Positions 13,508-20,351 of a stretch of 64,000 nucleotides of DNA are shown here, one piece after another; position 1 is the first letter of the stretch, and every line of letters begins with the position of its first letter. The position numbers and the translations under genes are program-made. This stretch comes from Paenacidovorax monticola (GTDB lineage: Bacteria > Pseudomonadota > Gammaproteobacteria > Burkholderiales > Burkholderiaceae_C), in NCBI RefSeq assembly GCF_014489595.1, contig NZ_CP060790.1, forward strand, positions 992,001 through 1,056,000, read 5' to 3'. The notes under the pieces were generated by a model. The model saw only the letters and a list, made by a program, of their open reading frames with translations. It did not search any database and was not told the DNA's origin.

Positions 13508-15898
13508 ATGTCCTCAGCAGCCCTCGCACCCGCCGAACTCCCGGGCTTCATCCTTACGCGCCACTGGCGCGATCTCCCAGACGGCACCGAGATCGAATAC
13601 TGGCTGGCCACCGACGAGGGGCCGAAGAAGGTGCTTCTGACACAGCAGACCTCGGTCGCCTTCCTGCCAGCCCGCCATCGGGCTGCGGCACAAGCTCCTC
13701 TGGCGGGCTTGGAGGTGAAGGAGCTTGGTCTGAAGACGTTCGATCAGGAGCCCGTCCTCGGCGTCTACGCCCGCAGGTTCCGTGATCTCGGCAAGCTGGC
13801 GCGCGCACTCCAGCCTCTGGGGATCCCGCTCTACGAAGCGGATGTCCGCCCGCACGACCGCTATCTGATGGAGCGGTTCATCACGGCCGGCGTTGTGGTC
13901 GAGGGAGGCCTGCGGAAAGGGCAGGGCATCATCGACTGCCGGTTGAAGCCCGCGTCCGGTTGGCGCCCGGTGATGAAGGTGGTGTCGCTGGACATCGAGA
14001 CGAGCGCGACTGAGGAGCTGTACTCCATTGCTCTGGATGGTGCGGGTGACCGGGTGGTCTTCATGCTGGGGGAGGTGACTGCATCAGCGTCGGCGCCAGC
14101 CGCGTCACCGATGGACTTCAGGCTTCTTTATTGCCCGACGCGCCGGGACATGGTCGAGCAGCTCAATGCCTGGTTTGAGGCCCACGATCCGGACGTCATC
14201 ATCGGCTGGAACGTGATCCAGTTCGACCTGCGGGTGCTACAGAAGGCGGCCGATGCGAGCTCCGTGCCGCTGCAGCTCGGACGCGAACGCCGTCCCATCG
14301 CGTGGCGCACGCACCCGGGTCGGCAGGGCTACCTGTTCGCACCCATGCCCGGGCGCGTGGTCGTCGATGGCATCGAAGCGCTGCGGGCGGGCATGTGGAG
14401 CTTCCCGTCGTTCAGCCTCGAAGCGGTCTCGCAGGAACTGCTCGGCGAGGGCAAGGAGATCGGCGATGCCTACGACAAGATGGCCGAGATCGAGCGGCGC
14501 TACCAGGCAAACAAGCCGGCGCTGGCCCGCTACAACATCCGCGACTGCGCGCTCGTCCTGCGCATCTTCGACCAACTGGAGCTGCTGCCGTTCGTGCTCG
14601 AGCGCGCGCAGACGACGGGCCTGCAGGTGGACCATTTTGGCGGCTCCATCGCCGCGTTCAGCCACCATTACCTGCCGCGCATGCACCGCCTGGGCTACGT
14701 GGCACCGAACGTGGGTGACATCGCGGCCAAGGCCTTCCCTGGCGGCTATGTGATGGACTCCACGCCGGGCTTCTACGACTCCGTCCTGGTCCTGGACTAC
14801 AAGAGCCTGTACCCCTCCATCATCCGGACCTTCCTGGTGGACCCCGTGGGCCTGGCCGAGGGAGAGAGCACTGACATCCAGACCGGGCTCGTGCAAGGAC
14901 CACAAGGCACGCTGTTCTCACGCGACAAGCACTGCCTGCCGGACATCGTGACCACCCTCTCGAATGCCCGGGACGAGGCCAAGCGGGCGCGCAACCAGCC
15001 GCTGTCGCAGGCCCTGAAGCTGCTCATGAACTCATTCGCCGGAGTGCTGGGCGCATCCGAGTGCCGCTTCTTCAATCCGAAACTGGTGTCCGCCATCACC
15101 CTGCGCGGCCACGAGGTGATGAAGCTGACCCGCGCGTTCGTGGAGCAGCGCGGATACCAGGTCATCTACGGAGACACCGACTCCATCTTCATCTGGCTCA
15201 AACGCCCCCATTCCACCGCGGAGGCGCACGCCGTTGCAGCCAGCCTAGTGCAGGACATCAACGCCTGGTGGGCCCGCAAGCTGCGCGAGGAGCAGCAGCT
15301 GGAGAGCTTCCTCGAAATCGAGTTCGACACCCACTACGCCAAGTTCTTCATGCCCACCATCCGGGGATCGGACGTGGGCAGCAAGAAGCGCTACGCCGGC
15401 CTGAGCATCGATGAAGAGGGGCGAGAGGAGATGGTCTATCGCGGGCTGGAGATGGCCCGCAGCGACTGGACCCCGTTGGCACGCCAGTTCCAGGAGGGCT
15501 TGCTCTCGCGCATCTTCCACGGTGAGCCCTACCGTGCGTTCGTGGCCGACTATGCGCGGTCGATGCTGGATGGCCGGATGGATGCGCTGCTCGTCTACCG
15601 CAAACGCCTGCGCCACCGGCTCGATGCCTACCAGGTCAACGTGCCGCCCCAGGTGCGCGCGGCGCGCATCGCTGACGCGCACAACGCGAAGTTGAACCGT
15701 CCCCAGCAGTACCAGCGCGGTGGCTGGATCCAGTATGTGATGACGCAGAGTGGTCCCGAGCCCCTGGAAGCGCGGCATTCCCGCATTGACTATGAACACT
15801 ACCTCGTCAAGCAGCTCCAGCCCATCGCCGACGCGATTCTCCAGCCATTGGGGGACAGCTTTGTGGCATTGACGAGTGCGCAGAAGGTGCTTTTCTAG
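13508..15898 (+). CDS. polB: DNA polymerase II (family B)
   Basis: 796 residues, close to the 783 of E. coli Pol II. The 3'-5' exonuclease domain shows Exo I 'VSLDIETS' (Asp162, Glu164) and Exo II 'IIGWNVIQFDLRVL'. Polymerase motif A is 'DYKSLYPSII' (Asp430), motif B includes 'ALKLLMNSFAGVLG', and motif C is 'YGDTDS' (Asp556, Asp558). All catalytic acids are present, so both activities should be intact. It would carry out high-fidelity or translesion synthesis during replication restart after DNA damage. There is no clear ribosome site before ATG 13508. An SOS box sits upstream, and the gene lies in an accessory-looking segment, so it may be horizontally acquired. Confidence 0.95.
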   Translation: MSSAALAPAELPGFILTRHWRDLPDGTEIEYWLATDEGPKKVLLTQQTSVAFLPARHRAAAQAPLAGLEVKELGLKTFDQEPVLGVYARRFRDLGKLARALQPLGIPLYEADVRPHDRYLMERFITAGVVVEGGLRKGQGIIDCRLKPASGWRPVMKVVSLDIETSATEELYSIALDGAGDRVVFMLGEVTASASAPAASPMDFRLLYCPTRRDMVEQLNAWFEAHDPDVIIGWNVIQFDLRVLQKAADASSVPLQLGRERRPIAWRTHPGRQGYLFAPMPGRVVVDGIEALRAGMWSFPSFSLEAVSQELLGEGKEIGDAYDKMAEIERRYQANKPALARYNIRDCALVLRIFDQLELLPFVLERAQTTGLQVDHFGGSIAAFSHHYLPRMHRLGYVAPNVGDIAAKAFPGGYVMDSTPGFYDSVLVLDYKSLYPSIIRTFLVDPVGLAEGESTDIQTGLVQGPQGTLFSRDKHCLPDIVTTLSNARDEAKRARNQPLSQALKLLMNSFAGVLGASECRFFNPKLVSAITLRGHEVMKLTRAFVEQRGYQVIYGDTDSIFIWLKRPHSTAEAHAVAASLVQDINAWWARKLREEQQLESFLEIEFDTHYAKFFMPTIRGSDVGSKKRYAGLSIDEEGREEMVYRGLEMARSDWTPLARQFQEGLLSRIFHGEPYRAFVADYARSMLDGRMDALLVYRKRLRHRLDAYQVNVPPQVRAARIADAHNAKLNRPQQYQRGGWIQYVMTQSGPEPLEARHSRIDYEHYLVKQLQPIADAILQPLGDSFVALTSAQKVLF

Positions 15899-16198
15899 GG
15901 GGCAGGGGGAGCAATCTGGTGCGATACCCAACGTCACAGCACTTCAGCAATGCAACATGTGCTACTCCAGCGACGGCCTTCCTATCACCTGTGCTGGCGG
16001 TTCCGACCCGTTGCGGTCCAATGCGGACGTCTGCTTGCAGCTTCATTGCGGGCGCTGTGTGACAAGTTCGATCCGCACTCGCCAACTTGCCTGTTGTGCC
16101 TGATATTCGCAAACCTGCGCAGCGAAGCTCGTGAGACGCTTGCATTGGTGGACGACTTGAATATATGATTCATATATGTTTTATGTGTGGAGGACTGC
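15899..16198. other. Gap of 300 bases after polB
   Basis: I see no convincing gene. Short open stretches exist on both strands but lack family sequence and ribosome sites. The last 40 bases turn sharply AT-rich and carry the operator and promoter of the ParD-like gene. Confidence 0.5.
16161..16177. promoter_or_regulatory. Palindromic operator of the ParD-like/MetAP pair
   Basis: ATATATGA - T - TCATATAT is a perfect eight-base inverted repeat around a single base, ending 21 bases before the ParD-like start. It overlaps the only plausible -10 region (TATATG/TATGTT). Ribbon-helix-helix antitoxins characteristically bind such sites to repress their own operons, so autoregulation is likely. Confidence 0.6.
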
Positions 16199-16405
16199 AT
16201 GGGCATCGTGAACATCGACGATGATCTGCACGATCAGATCCGCAAAGCCAGTGCCGTCTCGTGTCGGTCGATCAACGCGCAAGCGGCGTTCTGGATCAAG
16301 GTTGGCATGTTGTGCGAAACAAATCCAACGCTGAGCTTCAACGAGATCGTGACCCGTGAACTGAAAGGTGCCGGCGTCAGGGTGCAGACCGTCAAGGGGC
16401 TTTGA
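16199..16405 (+). CDS. ParD-like (ribbon-helix-helix type) small protein
   Basis: 68 residues from ATG 16199, with GGAGG at 16189-16193. Begins 'MGIVNIDDDLHDQIRKAS', a beta strand plus helix as in RHH antitoxins, then 'RSINAQAAFWIKVGML' as the second helix; the C-terminus is variable. This matches the family described as ParD-like antitoxins. No ParE toxin follows: the next gene, one base after the stop, is a methionine aminopeptidase. The protein would dimerise and bind the palindrome at 16161-16177. Whether it also contacts the aminopeptidase is unknown. Confidence 0.8.
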   Translation: MGIVNIDDDLHDQIRKASAVSCRSINAQAAFWIKVGMLCETNPTLSFNEIVTRELKGAGVRVQTVKGL

Positions 16406-16406
16406 C

Positions 16407-17174
16407 TTGACCAAGCGACCCGAAGAAATCGCCTTGATGGCGGAGTCCGGCCGCTTGCTGGCGGACGTGTTTGGCTATCTGGATCAGATGAACCTGATCG
16501 GCATGTCCACTATGCAGGTCAACGATCTGATCGATGGCTTCATCGTCAACGAACTCCAGGCGCGCCCGGCCAGCAAAGGACAGTATGGCTACGCCTACGC
16601 GCTCAACGCTTCACGTAACAACGTTGTGTGCCACGGTGTGCCGTCCACAACCGACATCCTGCAAAGCGGGGACATCGTCAACTTCGACATCACGTTGGAG
16701 AAAAATGGCTACATCGCCGATTCCAGTAAGACTTATCTGGTGGGTGAGGTGTCTCCCATGGCCAAACGGCTCGTGCAAGTGACCCATGAAGCGATGTGGA
16801 AAGGGATCAAGATGGTTCGTCCCGGCGCACGACTTGGCGATGTAGGTCACGCCATCGAGCGCCACGCGCGCAGAAACGGCTATTCAGTTGTGAGGGAATA
16901 TTGCGGGCACGGCATCGGGCGCGAGATGCACGAAGAGCCGCAAGTGCTGCACTGGGGCAAGCCGAAAACGGGGTTGGTTTTGCGCGAAGGCATGGTGTTC
17001 ACCATCGAGCCCATGATCAACCAGGGGCGAGCCGCGGTTCACACCCAAGAAGACGGTTGGACGGTCGTCACGTGCGATGAGCAACTGTCGGCACAGTTTG
17101 AACACACCGTGGCCGTGACACAGAACGGTGTGCAGGTTTTGACTTTGCGATCCGGGGAGAGGGTGCCCAACTGA
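16407..17174 (+). CDS. map: Type I methionine aminopeptidase (paralogue coupled to a ParD-like gene)
   Basis: 255 residues from TTG 16407, chosen because AAGGGG at 16394-16399 is seven bases upstream and the protein then begins 'MTKRPEEIALMAESGRLLAD', as type I enzymes do. All five metal ligands are in place: Asp94 and Asp105 ('VNFDITLEKNGYIADSS'), His168 ('CGHGIGREMHEEP'), Glu201 ('FTIEPMI') and Glu232 ('FEHTVAV'), with spacings matching E. coli Map. It should remove N-terminal Met from nascent proteins. The housekeeping map is normally near rpsB, so this is probably a second copy. Translational coupling to the ParD-like gene is essentially certain. Confidence 0.92.
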   Translation: MTKRPEEIALMAESGRLLADVFGYLDQMNLIGMSTMQVNDLIDGFIVNELQARPASKGQYGYAYALNASRNNVVCHGVPSTTDILQSGDIVNFDITLEKNGYIADSSKTYLVGEVSPMAKRLVQVTHEAMWKGIKMVRPGARLGDVGHAIERHARRNGYSVVREYCGHGIGREMHEEPQVLHWGKPKTGLVLREGMVFTIEPMINQGRAAVHTQEDGWTVVTCDEQLSAQFEHTVAVTQNGVQVLTLRSGERVPN

Positions 17175-17263
17175 TGAAGCGCTAAATGCCATTAGCAGGA
17201 TAAAAAACTTTATTTGACATAATATACATCGTATCTATCTAAAGAAAGACCATCCAGAAATGA

Positions 17264-17310
17264 TGTCAAACTACTTTTGACAGTCTGTCAATTGGCTATG
17301 CGACTGTCAA
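17264..17310. promoter_or_regulatory. Cluster of TGTCAA half-sites before the acyl-CoA synthetase
   Basis: TGTCAA occurs at 17264-17269, 17286-17291 and 17305-17310, and inverted (TTGACA) at 17277-17282 and 17214-17219. The pair at 17277-17291, TTGACA-GTC-TGTCAA, is a perfect palindrome. The region is AT-rich and ends 50 bases before the synthetase start. Repeated half-sites at about two-turn spacing suggest a regulator binding region; TTGACA may also be a -35 element. Confidence 0.45.
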
Positions 17311-17359
17311 AGCCGTTCTTCTGCTGAAAGAATGCCCGCTTCGCCCTGGAGACAAACCG

Positions 17360-19294
17360 ATGGCCCCGATTCCTGCTGCAGCGCCTTTCAGCGCATCCTT
17401 TCCCATCCGCAAGGTCGCGGACGTGCAACGGCTTGAGCAGACGCCGCTTTCCCAGGCGTTGACCGTGCGCAGCACCTACGAAATCTTCCGGAATTCGGCC
17501 GCCGCCTTTGGCGACAAGACGGCCTTGACCTTTCTTCGGACGGGAAACCCTGCCGATGAACCGATCCGTTGGTCCTACGCGGAATTGCTGGCGGGAATTC
17601 ACCGCACCGCCAACCTGTTGCACCGGCTCGGCGTGGGCTCCCATGACGCCGTGGCGATTCTGTTGCCTGGCTGTCTTGAATACCACCTGGCGCTCTGGGG
17701 CGCAGGCGCTGCCGGCATCGCGCAGCCTCTCAACCCGCTGCTGACCGACGAGAAGCTGGTGGCTCTGATGACGGCAGGCCGTGCCAAGGTGCTGATTGCC
17801 TATGGCGCGGAGGGCGATGCCGGCTACTGGAGCAAGGCGCTGCGGCTGCGAGACCAGGTTCCTACGCTCACCACCGTGCTGCGTGTGGCGCCGCACGACG
17901 AGGCGGCGGGCAGCGTCGGTGCGCTGCCCGAAGGCGTGCTGGACTTCACTGTGGCATGCACGGCCGAACCGGCCGACCGTCTTGTCAGCGGCCGCGACAT
18001 CGCGCCGGACGATATCTGCGCCTACTTTCACACCGGTGGGACCACGGGCGCACCCAAGCTGGCGCGCCACAGCCATGGCGCACAAGTCTTCACGGCATGG
18101 GCCAATGTCATGATGGTCGGGCTCGGGCCACAGGACATTTCGATCAACGGCTATCCCCTGTTCCATGTCGCGGGCGTGTTGCCGGCCTCGCTGGCCTCGC
18201 TGTCGGCCGGCGTGGAGGTCGTCATGCCCACCACGACCCTTCTGCGCAACCGGGAGGTGCTGTCCAACTACTGGAAGCTGGTCGAAAAATACCGCCCCAC
18301 CTCGCTGTCGGCCGTGCCCACCGTGCTGGCGGCGCTGGCCAATGTGCCACTCGATGGGGCCGACATTTCCTCCATACGCTACTGCCGCACGGGCGCCGCC
18401 GTGCTGCCTCCCGAGCTGGCCCAGCGCTTTGAGCAGCTGTTCGGCCTGCACGTGCACGAAAGCCTGGGCATGACCGAGATGGCGGGCATCTCCACGATCA
18501 CTCCGCCGGGAGTGGCGGGACCAGCGGGCTGCGTGGGACTGCGCCTGCCCCACTCCCAGCTGCGAATCGTCGCGCTCGATCCGCAAGGCCAGGCCACCCA
18601 TCGTGACCTGCCCATCGGGGAACAAGGCATGGTGCTGTTCAAGTCGCCCAACCTGTTCTCCGGTTTTGTCGACCCGGCTGACAACGCCAAGGCCTTCACC
18701 GACGACGGGTGGCTGATCACCGGGGACCTGGGCTGGCTCGATGCCGGACAGCGCCTGCACCTCAGCGGCCGCGCGAAAGACCTGATCATCCGCAGCGGCC
18801 ACAACATCGACCCCAAGGCCATCGAGGATGCGCTGGGCGCGCACCCCGCAGTGCAGCTGTGCGCCGCGGTCGGCGCACCGGATGCCTATGCCGGCGAGCT
18901 GCCCGTGGTTTTCGCCACCCTGGCTCCGGGCGCCAGCGCGACCGAGGAAGAGTTGCTGGCCTTCACGGCCGAACGCGTGGACGAGGCCCCGGCACGCCCC
19001 AAGGCAGTCGTCCTGATTCCACAGATGCCGATGACCAATGTTGGCAAGATTTTCAAGCCCGAGTTGCGCGCACTGGCCGCGCGCCGCGTGGCCGAAGCTC
19101 TGGTTGGCGAGGCTTGTGCGGCACTGGGTCTGCTTGCCGGCACGCATCCCCTGGTGCGGGCCGAGAGCGACAAGGCGCTCCAGGTGACCATCGACACCGC
19201 TGCGGTGGGCGCGCAGCAGGCCGCGGCCCTTCAGGCCCACCTGCAGCAGACGCTGGGCCGGCTACCGCTCAGGGTGCAGATCGTGCTGCATTGA
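17360..19294 (+). CDS. Acyl-CoA synthetase (AMP-forming)
   Basis: 644 residues of the ANL superfamily. The ATP-binding P-loop is 'TGGTTGAPK' at 225-233; A5 'GMTEMAG' follows the 'LFGLHVHESLGM' segment; A7 appears as 'GWLITGDLGWLDAGQRL' and A8 as 'SGRAKDLIIRSGHNI'. The A10 lysine is in 'MPMTNVGKIFKPELR'. It activates a carboxylic acid to its CoA thioester through an acyl-adenylate. The following Bug receptor and SDR suggest an import, activation and oxidation route. The N-terminus is longer than usual by about 40 residues. Substrate chain type is not assignable. Confidence 0.92.
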   Translation: MAPIPAAAPFSASFPIRKVADVQRLEQTPLSQALTVRSTYEIFRNSAAAFGDKTALTFLRTGNPADEPIRWSYAELLAGIHRTANLLHRLGVGSHDAVAILLPGCLEYHLALWGAGAAGIAQPLNPLLTDEKLVALMTAGRAKVLIAYGAEGDAGYWSKALRLRDQVPTLTTVLRVAPHDEAAGSVGALPEGVLDFTVACTAEPADRLVSGRDIAPDDICAYFHTGGTTGAPKLARHSHGAQVFTAWANVMMVGLGPQDISINGYPLFHVAGVLPASLASLSAGVEVVMPTTTLLRNREVLSNYWKLVEKYRPTSLSAVPTVLAALANVPLDGADISSIRYCRTGAAVLPPELAQRFEQLFGLHVHESLGMTEMAGISTITPPGVAGPAGCVGLRLPHSQLRIVALDPQGQATHRDLPIGEQGMVLFKSPNLFSGFVDPADNAKAFTDDGWLITGDLGWLDAGQRLHLSGRAKDLIIRSGHNIDPKAIEDALGAHPAVQLCAAVGAPDAYAGELPVVFATLAPGASATEEELLAFTAERVDEAPARPKAVVLIPQMPMTNVGKIFKPELRALAARRVAEALVGEACAALGLLAGTHPLVRAESDKALQVTIDTAAVGAQQAAALQAHLQQTLGRLPLRVQIVLH

Positions 19295-19352
19295 CGTGTC
19301 CGGCCCTTCGTGCCCTCCCTTTTCCCATAGAACCACAAACATAGGAGACAAC

Positions 19353-20351
19353 ATGAACTTCGCACCAAACCGCCGCAACCTGCTGGCAGCCGCCTCGGCC
19401 TTCGCGCTCGCGGGCTGCGCTGCCTCGGCACTGGCCCAGACGGGCTACCCCAGCAAACCCATTCGCATGATCGTGCCGTTCGCCGCCGGGGGCGGCACGG
19501 ACGTGCTGGCCCGCGTGATCGGAGAAAAGCTGTCGGCCAGCCTGGGCCAGCCCGTGGTGATCGACAACCGGCCGGGCGCGGCCGGCATCATCGGCACCGA
19601 TGCCGTGGCCAAGGCCGCCCCCGACGGGCATACCATCGTGCTCTCGCTTTCCAACGCGCTGATGACCAACCAGTTCCTCTACGAGAAACTGCCCTACCAC
19701 CCCGAGCGCGATCTCGCGCTGGTCTATCAGATCGCGATGGGCCCCCTGGTGCTGGTCACGCACCCGAGCATCCCGGCCAAGACGGCTCCCGACCTGCTCA
19801 AGTACATGGCCGCCAACAAGGGCAAGCTCGCTTATGGCTCCTATGGGCTGGGGGCCTATCCGCACCTGGCGGGTGCCCACATGAGCACGGCGCAGAACGC
19901 CGACATGAGCCACGCGGCGTACAAGGGCGAAGCGCCGATGGTGCAAGACCTGATCGGAGGCCAGATCCAGATGGCTTTCGCCAGCGCATTGCAGGCCAAG
20001 CCACACATCGAAGCCGGAAAGCTCAACGCGATCGGCGTAAGTGGCGAACGGCGGCTCTCCACCCTGCCGAATGTCCCCACGCTGGCAGAACAGGGGTTGA
20101 AGGACGAAGCCTATCGGCTCACGGGATGGCTGGCGATCGCTGCACCGGCGAAGACGCCCTCCCCCATCGTGCGGCGCCTGGCAGATGAGGTGCGCAAGGC
20201 CACACAGCAACCCGATGTACAGCAGCGCGTGGCCGCCATGGGCTTCGAACTGCTGCCCGACAGCTCCCCCGAAGCCTTTGCCGCGGCCTACCGAAAAGAG
20301 CGCCCGGCCTGGGAACTGCTCATCAAGCAGTCGGGCGTGAAGCTGGACTGA
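19353..20351 (+). CDS. Bug/TctC-family periplasmic substrate-binding protein
   Basis: 332 residues from ATG 19353 with TAGGAGA seven bases upstream. The signal peptide begins 'MNFAPNRRNLLAAASAFALA', with twin arginine, and cleavage is expected after 'SALAQ'. The core motifs are 'YPSKPIRMIVPFAAGGGTD', 'VVIDNRPGAAGIIGTD' and 'LPNVPTLAEQGLK'. A Cys in 'LAGCAAS' could also suggest a lipobox, but the position is not ideal. It lies 58 bases after the acyl-CoA synthetase, so the bound ligand is plausibly the acid that the synthetase activates. Confidence 0.93.
   Translation: MNFAPNRRNLLAAASAFALAGCAASALAQTGYPSKPIRMIVPFAAGGGTDVLARVIGEKLSASLGQPVVIDNRPGAAGIIGTDAVAKAAPDGHTIVLSLSNALMTNQFLYEKLPYHPERDLALVYQIAMGPLVLVTHPSIPAKTAPDLLKYMAANKGKLAYGSYGLGAYPHLAGAHMSTAQNADMSHAAYKGEAPMVQDLIGGQIQMAFASALQAKPHIEAGKLNAIGVSGERRLSTLPNVPTLAEQGLKDEAYRLTGWLAIAAPAKTPSPIVRRLADEVRKATQQPDVQQRVAAMGFELLPDSSPEAFAAAYRKERPAWELLIKQSGVKLD

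Follow-up and report, generated by a model that had tools for sequence, protein, structure and literature searches.

A second methionine aminopeptidase (MetAP) under repressor control has been described in Bacillus subtilis, where YflG is non-essential and of low expression and YvoA acts as a weak repressor (PMC1266368). This is the nearest precedent that we met for the locus described here, in which a gene of the ParD_like family (PF11903), a family of type II antitoxins, is joined to an accessory MetAP gene in the window, i.e., the 64-kb stretch of the Paenacidovorax monticola genome that was analyzed (contig NZ_CP060790.1, positions 992,001 to 1,056,000). YvoA, however, is a different regulator, tied by its authors to N-acetylglucosamine metabolism, and the accessible part of their report mentions no ParD-like gene (PMC1266368). 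Our literature search, with most subscription papers outside its reach, recovered no paper on a ParD-like/MetAP pair; in one report, according to its accessible text, a single fosmid carries a gene for MetAP and, separately, a RelBE pair (PMC3948609). At the sequence level, we show that the coupling is specific and mobile, joining one repressor clade with an invariant Met1-Gly2 start to two lineages of extra-copy enzymes behind a conserved operator that is unique in the genome. On balance, we think it probable that an antitoxin-derived autorepressor controls the accessory MetAP in a self-contained mobile operon, with the state of Met1-Gly2 as the favored, inferred signal.

Coupling of a ParD-like gene to an accessory methionine aminopeptidase

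The ParD-like gene (16199..16405, plus strand, with ATG at 16199 and the stop codon at 16403-16405) encodes a 68-residue protein that scored 73.9 bits against the PF11903 profile (curated cut-off, 23) and is predicted to be a ribbon-helix-helix autorepressor. After a single intergenic base (16406), it is followed by the gene for a type I MetAP (16407..17174, plus strand, stop at 17174), which starts with TTG and encodes 255 residues scoring 295 bits against TIGR00500 (cut-off, 171), with all five metal ligands in place (Asp94, Asp105, His168, Glu201, and Glu232). The TTG start is supported because ATG occupies the equivalent codon in six of the six close relatives compared. PF11903 had this single match in the whole genome (4.68 Mb, one contig), where two type I MetAPs exceeded the cut-off, the other copy being located at C1:563883-564641. 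An earlier note, made from the letters alone, had described just such a ParD-like gene, one base, and a five-ligand, TTG-started second MetAP, and each of these points was borne out.

PF11903 was then surveyed in 60 relatives, 20 of which carry it, and in 398 genomes from the phylum, 109 of which do, and 131 of the 133 listed places were examined, G291 (22.7 bits) and the second place of G415 (22.2 bits) being left out. MetAP lay directly downstream on the same strand in 54 of the 131 places and was lacking there in 77, including L111, counted as uncoupled with its MetAP 797 nucleotides (nt) downstream. By downstream gene, the 77 uncoupled places comprised 49 with a ParE-like gene, 11 with a zeta-like gene, and 17 with neither (among them contig ends and at least one doubtful match, L134), with the Pfam names taken from one member of each downstream-gene cluster (sizes, 51 and 11). 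The 54 coupled ParD-like proteins formed one clade (FastTree support of 0.989, for a short protein and a midpoint root). PF11903 had no match in 14 control genomes. Thus, the statement in the earlier note that this family occurs next to map paralogues elsewhere proved correct, the coupling being real and specific and other members preceding toxin-like genes; adjacency is mixed in the family as a whole (54/131) and complete in one clade (54/54). A zeta-toxin-like gene is a second partner type within the same antitoxin family, and the zeta-partnered proteins have at least 100 residues (11 loci, including L019, L020, L021, L026, L127, and L128).

Another 84 loci came from a scan of genome contigs, of which the best 80 of at least 592 relatives were kept, and from a scan of viral contigs (4 relatives). 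One of the two patterns used in the genome-contig scan was MGI[VI], and the N-termini of those loci are hence biased, while the 54 loci found by the Pfam profile are free of this bias; 3 of the 84 were already among the 54, and L158 and L159 are identical around the pair. MetAP was directly downstream on the same strand in 83 of the 84, and in the remaining one (L237) the two genes stand head-to-head. The proposed layout of an autoregulated toxin-antitoxin operon in which MetAP takes the place of the toxin therefore recurs on one strand in 54/54 and 83/84 coupled loci, and an NTGA stop-start overlap was found in 106 of 137. Carriers among the best 80 relatives include Paraburkholderia, Massilia, Cupriavidus, Bordetella, Stenotrophomonas, Sphingomonas, Novosphingobium, Mesorhizobium, and Pseudomonas. 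The divergent genes of L237 (1-1185) share one 54-bp promoter region.

In the phylum sample, at least two MetAPs are present in each of the 48 coupled genomes, while two were found in 33 of the other 350 (2 of the 33 owing to contig-end fragments). MetAP sequences were extracted for 135 of the 137 same-strand coupled loci (L060 and L230 were missed), and uncoupled copies were taken one each from 19 of the 33 two-MetAP genomes without a coupled pair, plus one from G376. In the resulting tree (110 rows), the coupled enzymes fell into two lineages: clade A, to which the MetAP of the window belongs (48 rows and the orphan L244; support, 96/92), was set apart from housekeeping MetAPs, while clade B (20 rows; support, 100/97) was nested among them, indicating that one repressor type has been joined to two MetAP lineages. 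Judging from these trees, repressor and enzyme would have been coupled either twice or once with a replacement afterwards, and by either history MetAP itself seems to be the point of pairing.

Predicted operator and promoter, and N-terminus of the ParD-like protein

The perfect palindrome to which the earlier note had drawn attention, ATATATGA-T-TCATATAT (16161..16177, 17 bp), is real, and its extent has to be amended, as it forms two of the three boxes of a predicted 26-bp operator (16162..16187) with the consensus TATAYGNWWCRTATAYGNWWCRTATA, which the window matches at 21 of 24 specified positions. Perfect palindromes of the 8+1+8 type occur three times in the window, this one included. The palindrome is beyond chance, because its score was not reached when the 100 bp upstream were shuffled (0/100 shuffles) and because the larger enclosing operator is conserved. 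This operator consists of three TATA boxes spaced 11 bp apart, its center lying mostly ∼24 or ∼34 bp before the start codon. A score of at least 19/24, which arises in 0.06 to 0.28% of shuffles, was reached in 51 of the 54 profile-found coupled loci and likewise in 81 of the 82 other coupled loci with enough upstream DNA (a further locus had too little), compared with 0 of 76 uncoupled PF11903 loci (best, 18); at 20 other housekeeping loci, with both strands searched, the maximum was 17/24. The 17-nt operator core, with one mismatch allowed, occurs at this one site only in the 4.68-Mb genome. A wider regulon under this operator was also considered and rejected, since the core has no second genomic site and the best score before the other map gene is 12/24.

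Upstream of the operator, a −35-like TTGCAT (16140..16145, plus strand) marks a putative promoter, with a spacing of 16 to TATATG or 18 to TATGAT, both inside the operator. TTG was enriched ∼20 nt before the operator across 132 aligned loci, and a consensus promoter scan returned no site at the TTGCAT region. Judging from the position of this TTG, the operator likely covers the −10 region. At the sequence level, the locus thus has what marks a ribbon-helix-helix autorepressor, a palindromic operator before its own gene; we infer that the ParD-like protein binds this operator and that binding represses.

In the ribbon-helix-helix fold, the N-terminal strand enters the DNA groove. MetAP accepts small penultimate residues such as glycine. 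Certain penultimate residues are disfavored by MetAP, as stated in the accessible part of one report (PMC8185961). All 54 coupled proteins begin with the start codon followed by Gly-[Ile/Leu] with no variation in length (ATG in 52, TTG in 1, and GTG in 1), and a start codon for M, V, or L followed by Gly-[IL]-[VI] at a fixed distance was found in 54/54 and in 84/84 further loci. Met1-Gly2 (codons at 16199..16204, plus strand) is thus invariant within the coupled clade, as are His11, Arg15, Arg23, Ser24, Asn26, Gln28, Ala29, Trp32, Gly36, and Glu40 in the 54 proteins. Gly2 is encoded by GGC (30 loci), GGT (15), GGA (8), and GGG (1), and this use of all four codons indicates that conservation acts on the protein rather than on the DNA. 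In contrast, position 2 of uncoupled proteins is Ala, Pro, Ser, or Thr in 71 of 77, with variable spacing. An upstream in-frame start is absent before a stop in 28 of the 54 coupled loci, and at some others such a start may exist. Among 240 database relatives (the best 120 of 2338 and the best 120 of 7145, the protein of the window included), G-I-[VI] follows M, V, or L in all 240, at the annotated start in 205 and after an annotated extension in 35.

The predicted strand-helix-helix fold has some backing from an AlphaFold2 model of moderate quality (pLDDT, 83; helices at 8-21, 25-41, and 47-57) and none from a structural match. No solved structure was related in sequence to the ParD-like protein at E 10, and ParE-partnered PF11903 members had one chance-level match only. 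In the ParD-like protein, the predicted DNA-contacting strand would start near residue 3, one position beyond Met1-Gly2, so that the DNA-reading end would be a substrate of the very enzyme under control and the repressor would report methionine excision. Accordingly worded as a proposal, the mechanism would run as follows. The ParD-like repressor would bind the dedicated three-box operator that covers its promoter, and in this way it would control the MetAP sitting where a toxin would be. Met1-Gly2, a presumably good MetAP substrate at the start of the DNA-contacting strand, would be processed, and the form with Gly2 at its N-terminus would repress. Once methionine removal fails, through an inhibitor, metal shortage, or too little enzyme, the Met1 form would release the operator, and spare MetAP would be made until processing recovers. 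Sensing of methionine-removal capacity through Met1-Gly2 is favored but unproven, and the complete proposal, in which the repressor senses excision failure and switches on a spare, possibly inhibitor-tolerant isozyme, is put forward tentatively.

The pair could instead be a plain autoregulated accessory isozyme, with spare MetAP held at a low level by the repressor and with a ligand, a metal, proteolysis of the antitoxin type, or MetAP as corepressor providing the signal, in which case Met1-Gly2 would be purely structural. All findings apart from the sensing step fit this equally, and YflG, a working, weakly expressed second MetAP modulated by YvoA, offers a precedent (PMC1266368). It does not account, however, for the constant length and the fixed Gly2 of the N-terminus in the coupled loci, when uncoupled relatives vary, or for a partner that is always MetAP; we regard it as possible but somewhat unlikely.

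Mobility of the pair and the methionine pocket of its enzyme

The ParD-like protein was matched in 162 of 72,556 plasmid records, and the pair was present in all five plasmid regions inspected (a conjugative Klebsiella IncFII plasmid, Acinetobacter, Psychrobacter, and Pantoea plasmids, and a second Klebsiella plasmid). Solimonas and Cupriavidus have 12.2 kb around the pair in common at 97.2%, with TraU and TraG_N genes on the Solimonas stretch, and Halotalea shares 5.1 kb around the pair with a Klebsiella plasmid at 99.8%. A clade-A-like MetAP (E 1e-95) occurred in 3 of 80 genomes of the window's own family, its own included. Carriage by E. coli was considered and rejected, as no match to the Klebsiella-plasmid pair was found in the E. 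coli genome collection searched. From these comparisons, the pair is a unit that moves on plasmids and conjugative elements. In an Acinetobacter seifertii plasmid (L240, 2541-5979), blaOXA-58 lies ∼1.6 kb from the pair, and an IS982-type transposase gene separates the two. A phage origin was rejected, as a search of 50,697 phage records at E 0.01 gave no match and viral contigs gave 4 relatives.

In the window, the G+C content of the pair is 57.5%, compared with 67.9% for the window, and 4% of equal-length windows are as low. The absence of a ParE toxin, claimed earlier, was confirmed, since the flanking genes are those of DNA polymerase II (family B; 13508-15898, directly 5′) and a CoA-ligase-type gene at 17360, after an A+T-rich gap. 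The neighbors in the window were not found beside the pair in a comparison of eight loci (from six distinct places, some having only 1.5 kb of flank), the one match being to a CoA-ligase homologue in L157, a distant one with 27% identity. The A+T-rich gap contains TTTGACA/TGTCAAA inverted repeats (17213-17270 and 17276-17311; span, 17213-17311), which look like the operator of some other regulator. No tRNA gene was found in the window, no known RNA family within 14000-20000, and no PADLOC anti-phage defense family at E 1 for either protein of the pair.

The methionine side-chain (P1) pocket was compared at E. coli positions 59, 62, 65, 70, 177, and 221, following the list in the accessible part of PMC10724148. 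In 112 intact clade-A enzymes, these positions are Ser (111 enzymes), Gln, Tyr/Phe, Asn, Met, and Trp; the window has Ser56 (16572..16574; E. coli Cys59), Gln59 (16581..16583; Tyr62), Asn67 (16605..16607; Cys70), and Met174 (16926..16928; Phe177), all on the plus strand. All 21 housekeeping enzymes have Cys70 and Phe or Tyr177, and Tyr62 was counted in 20 or in 21 of them according to the alignment used. This canonical pocket, typical of but not defining TIGR00500, is thus absent from the MetAP of the window, while clade A keeps the P1′ residues and both active-site histidines. The clade-B pocket is near normal (Asn, Tyr, Tyr/Phe, Cys/Leu, Tyr, and Trp). Taken together, the window appears to encode an additional isozyme in which the catalytic metals and the P1′ site are preserved, its methionine pocket being altered as in the rest of its clade. 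Among the 20 MetAPs without a ParD-like neighbor, only L244, the same gene as L264, has the clade-A signature, and it retains a partial operator (19/24). Thirteen of these 20 uncoupled copies (L250-L262) form a divergent MetAP lineage without a ParD-like neighbor that is altered at P1′ too (Ala78, Leu168, and Phe206, 13/20 each). In the region of E. coli residues 208-230, which we take to dock the ribosome, mean net charge is −0.15 for clade A, +0.79 for the group designated B at that stage, and +2.14 for the 21 housekeeping enzymes, with overlapping ranges, a mere hint that clade A may dock more weakly.

Two further readings start from this pocket. Clade A might have altered specificity, removing a different N-terminal residue, e.g., oxidized methionine, given that Tyr62→Gln, Cys70→Asn, and Phe177→Met are fixed in 112/112 and would make the pocket more polar. 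Residue identity is the evidence here, while clade B lacks these changes, and we consider this reading improbable. Alternatively, the clade-A enzyme may be a target replacement, i.e., an inducible, inhibitor-tolerant spare, which would be compatible with control by the autorepressor. Positions 62, 70, and 177 are changed and fixed as Q, N, and M in 112/112 while metals and P1′ are kept, and the same three residues recurred in 17/17 enzymes of a further sample (198 genomes of the family of G334, two of them overlapping the first sample; MetAP threshold, E 1e-100). Moreover, the pair is carried by plasmids and conjugative elements, the terminal alkyl group of a bengamide analogue occupies the P1 pocket, perhaps an equivalent one, of human MetAP2 (PMC3967228), and a terrestrial myxobacterium makes bengamides (PMC9228497), as far as the accessible parts of these reports go. 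On the other side stand the nearly normal pocket of clade B and position 59, which also differs but varies among the housekeeping enzymes (P in 8, C in 7, N in 5, and T in 1); inhibitor tolerance is predicted from sequence. We hold target replacement to be conceivable, though rather doubtful.

Finally, the earlier note had suggested a regulatory or toxin-antitoxin-like module that alters N-terminal methionine removal. In an addiction (toxin-antitoxin) module, free MetAP would be toxic and the ParD-like protein would neutralize it. The operon layout, the family of the small gene, its plasmid carriage, and the small number of orphan and broken copies agree with such a module. Toxin genes are expected to occur only rarely without their antitoxin, however, and orphan clade-A MetAPs exist: of 17 MetAPs in the 198 genomes, all with the clade-A signature, 15 have a ParD-like gene upstream and 2 (L264 and L279) have none, while in L166 and L183 an intact ParD-like gene stands beside an apparently broken MetAP. 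The joining of a single repressor clade to two separate MetAP lineages also speaks against addiction. In addition, MetAP is a housekeeping activity in the carriers, and in the phylum sample 48/48 coupled genomes have another copy. While 33 of the 49 ParE-partnered members end in a Y-x-F tail, this tail is missing from all 54 coupled proteins; this is a weak argument that does not alone exclude an antitoxin role, as the zeta-partnered members (0/11) lack the tail too. Hence, the pair is probably not a toxin-antitoxin module, and we regard addiction as very unlikely.

Comparison with known systems

The preferred reading, that of an antitoxin-family autorepressor controlling an accessory MetAP, is also what would be new here. 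It points to a branch of an antitoxin family in which the partner is an essential-type enzyme and not a toxin, the operon logic being kept and two MetAP lineages occupying the partner slot. To our knowledge, little is known about how bacteria adjust methionine excision to need. If the sensing step is true, a mobile, antitoxin-derived repressor senses the failure of an essential cotranslational enzyme and switches on a spare isozyme. Moreover, for MetAP as a drug target, it matters that a plasmid-borne enzyme has a changed methionine pocket. Mobile elements carry a class of second copies of essential target enzymes that are insensitive to drugs; the MetAP of the pair resembles them in being accessory, mobile, and altered in its active-site pocket, and differs in that no inhibitor phenotype is known for it.

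The ParD-like protein shares with the type II antitoxins of PF11903 its Pfam family, its operon position, and a profile comparison with ParE-partnered members at 98.9% probability. Unlike them, the coupled clade has MetAP, not a ParE- or zeta-like protein, as its partner, and it is a separate clade with its own operator, a fixed Met-Gly start, and no Y-x-F tail of the kind carried by most ParE-partnered members. Similarly, the MetAP agrees with E. coli Map in the TIGR00500 profile, the five metal ligands, both active-site histidines, and the P1′ residues, whereas it differs in being an extra copy in an operon of the toxin-antitoxin type, with the P1 pocket altered as in clade A.
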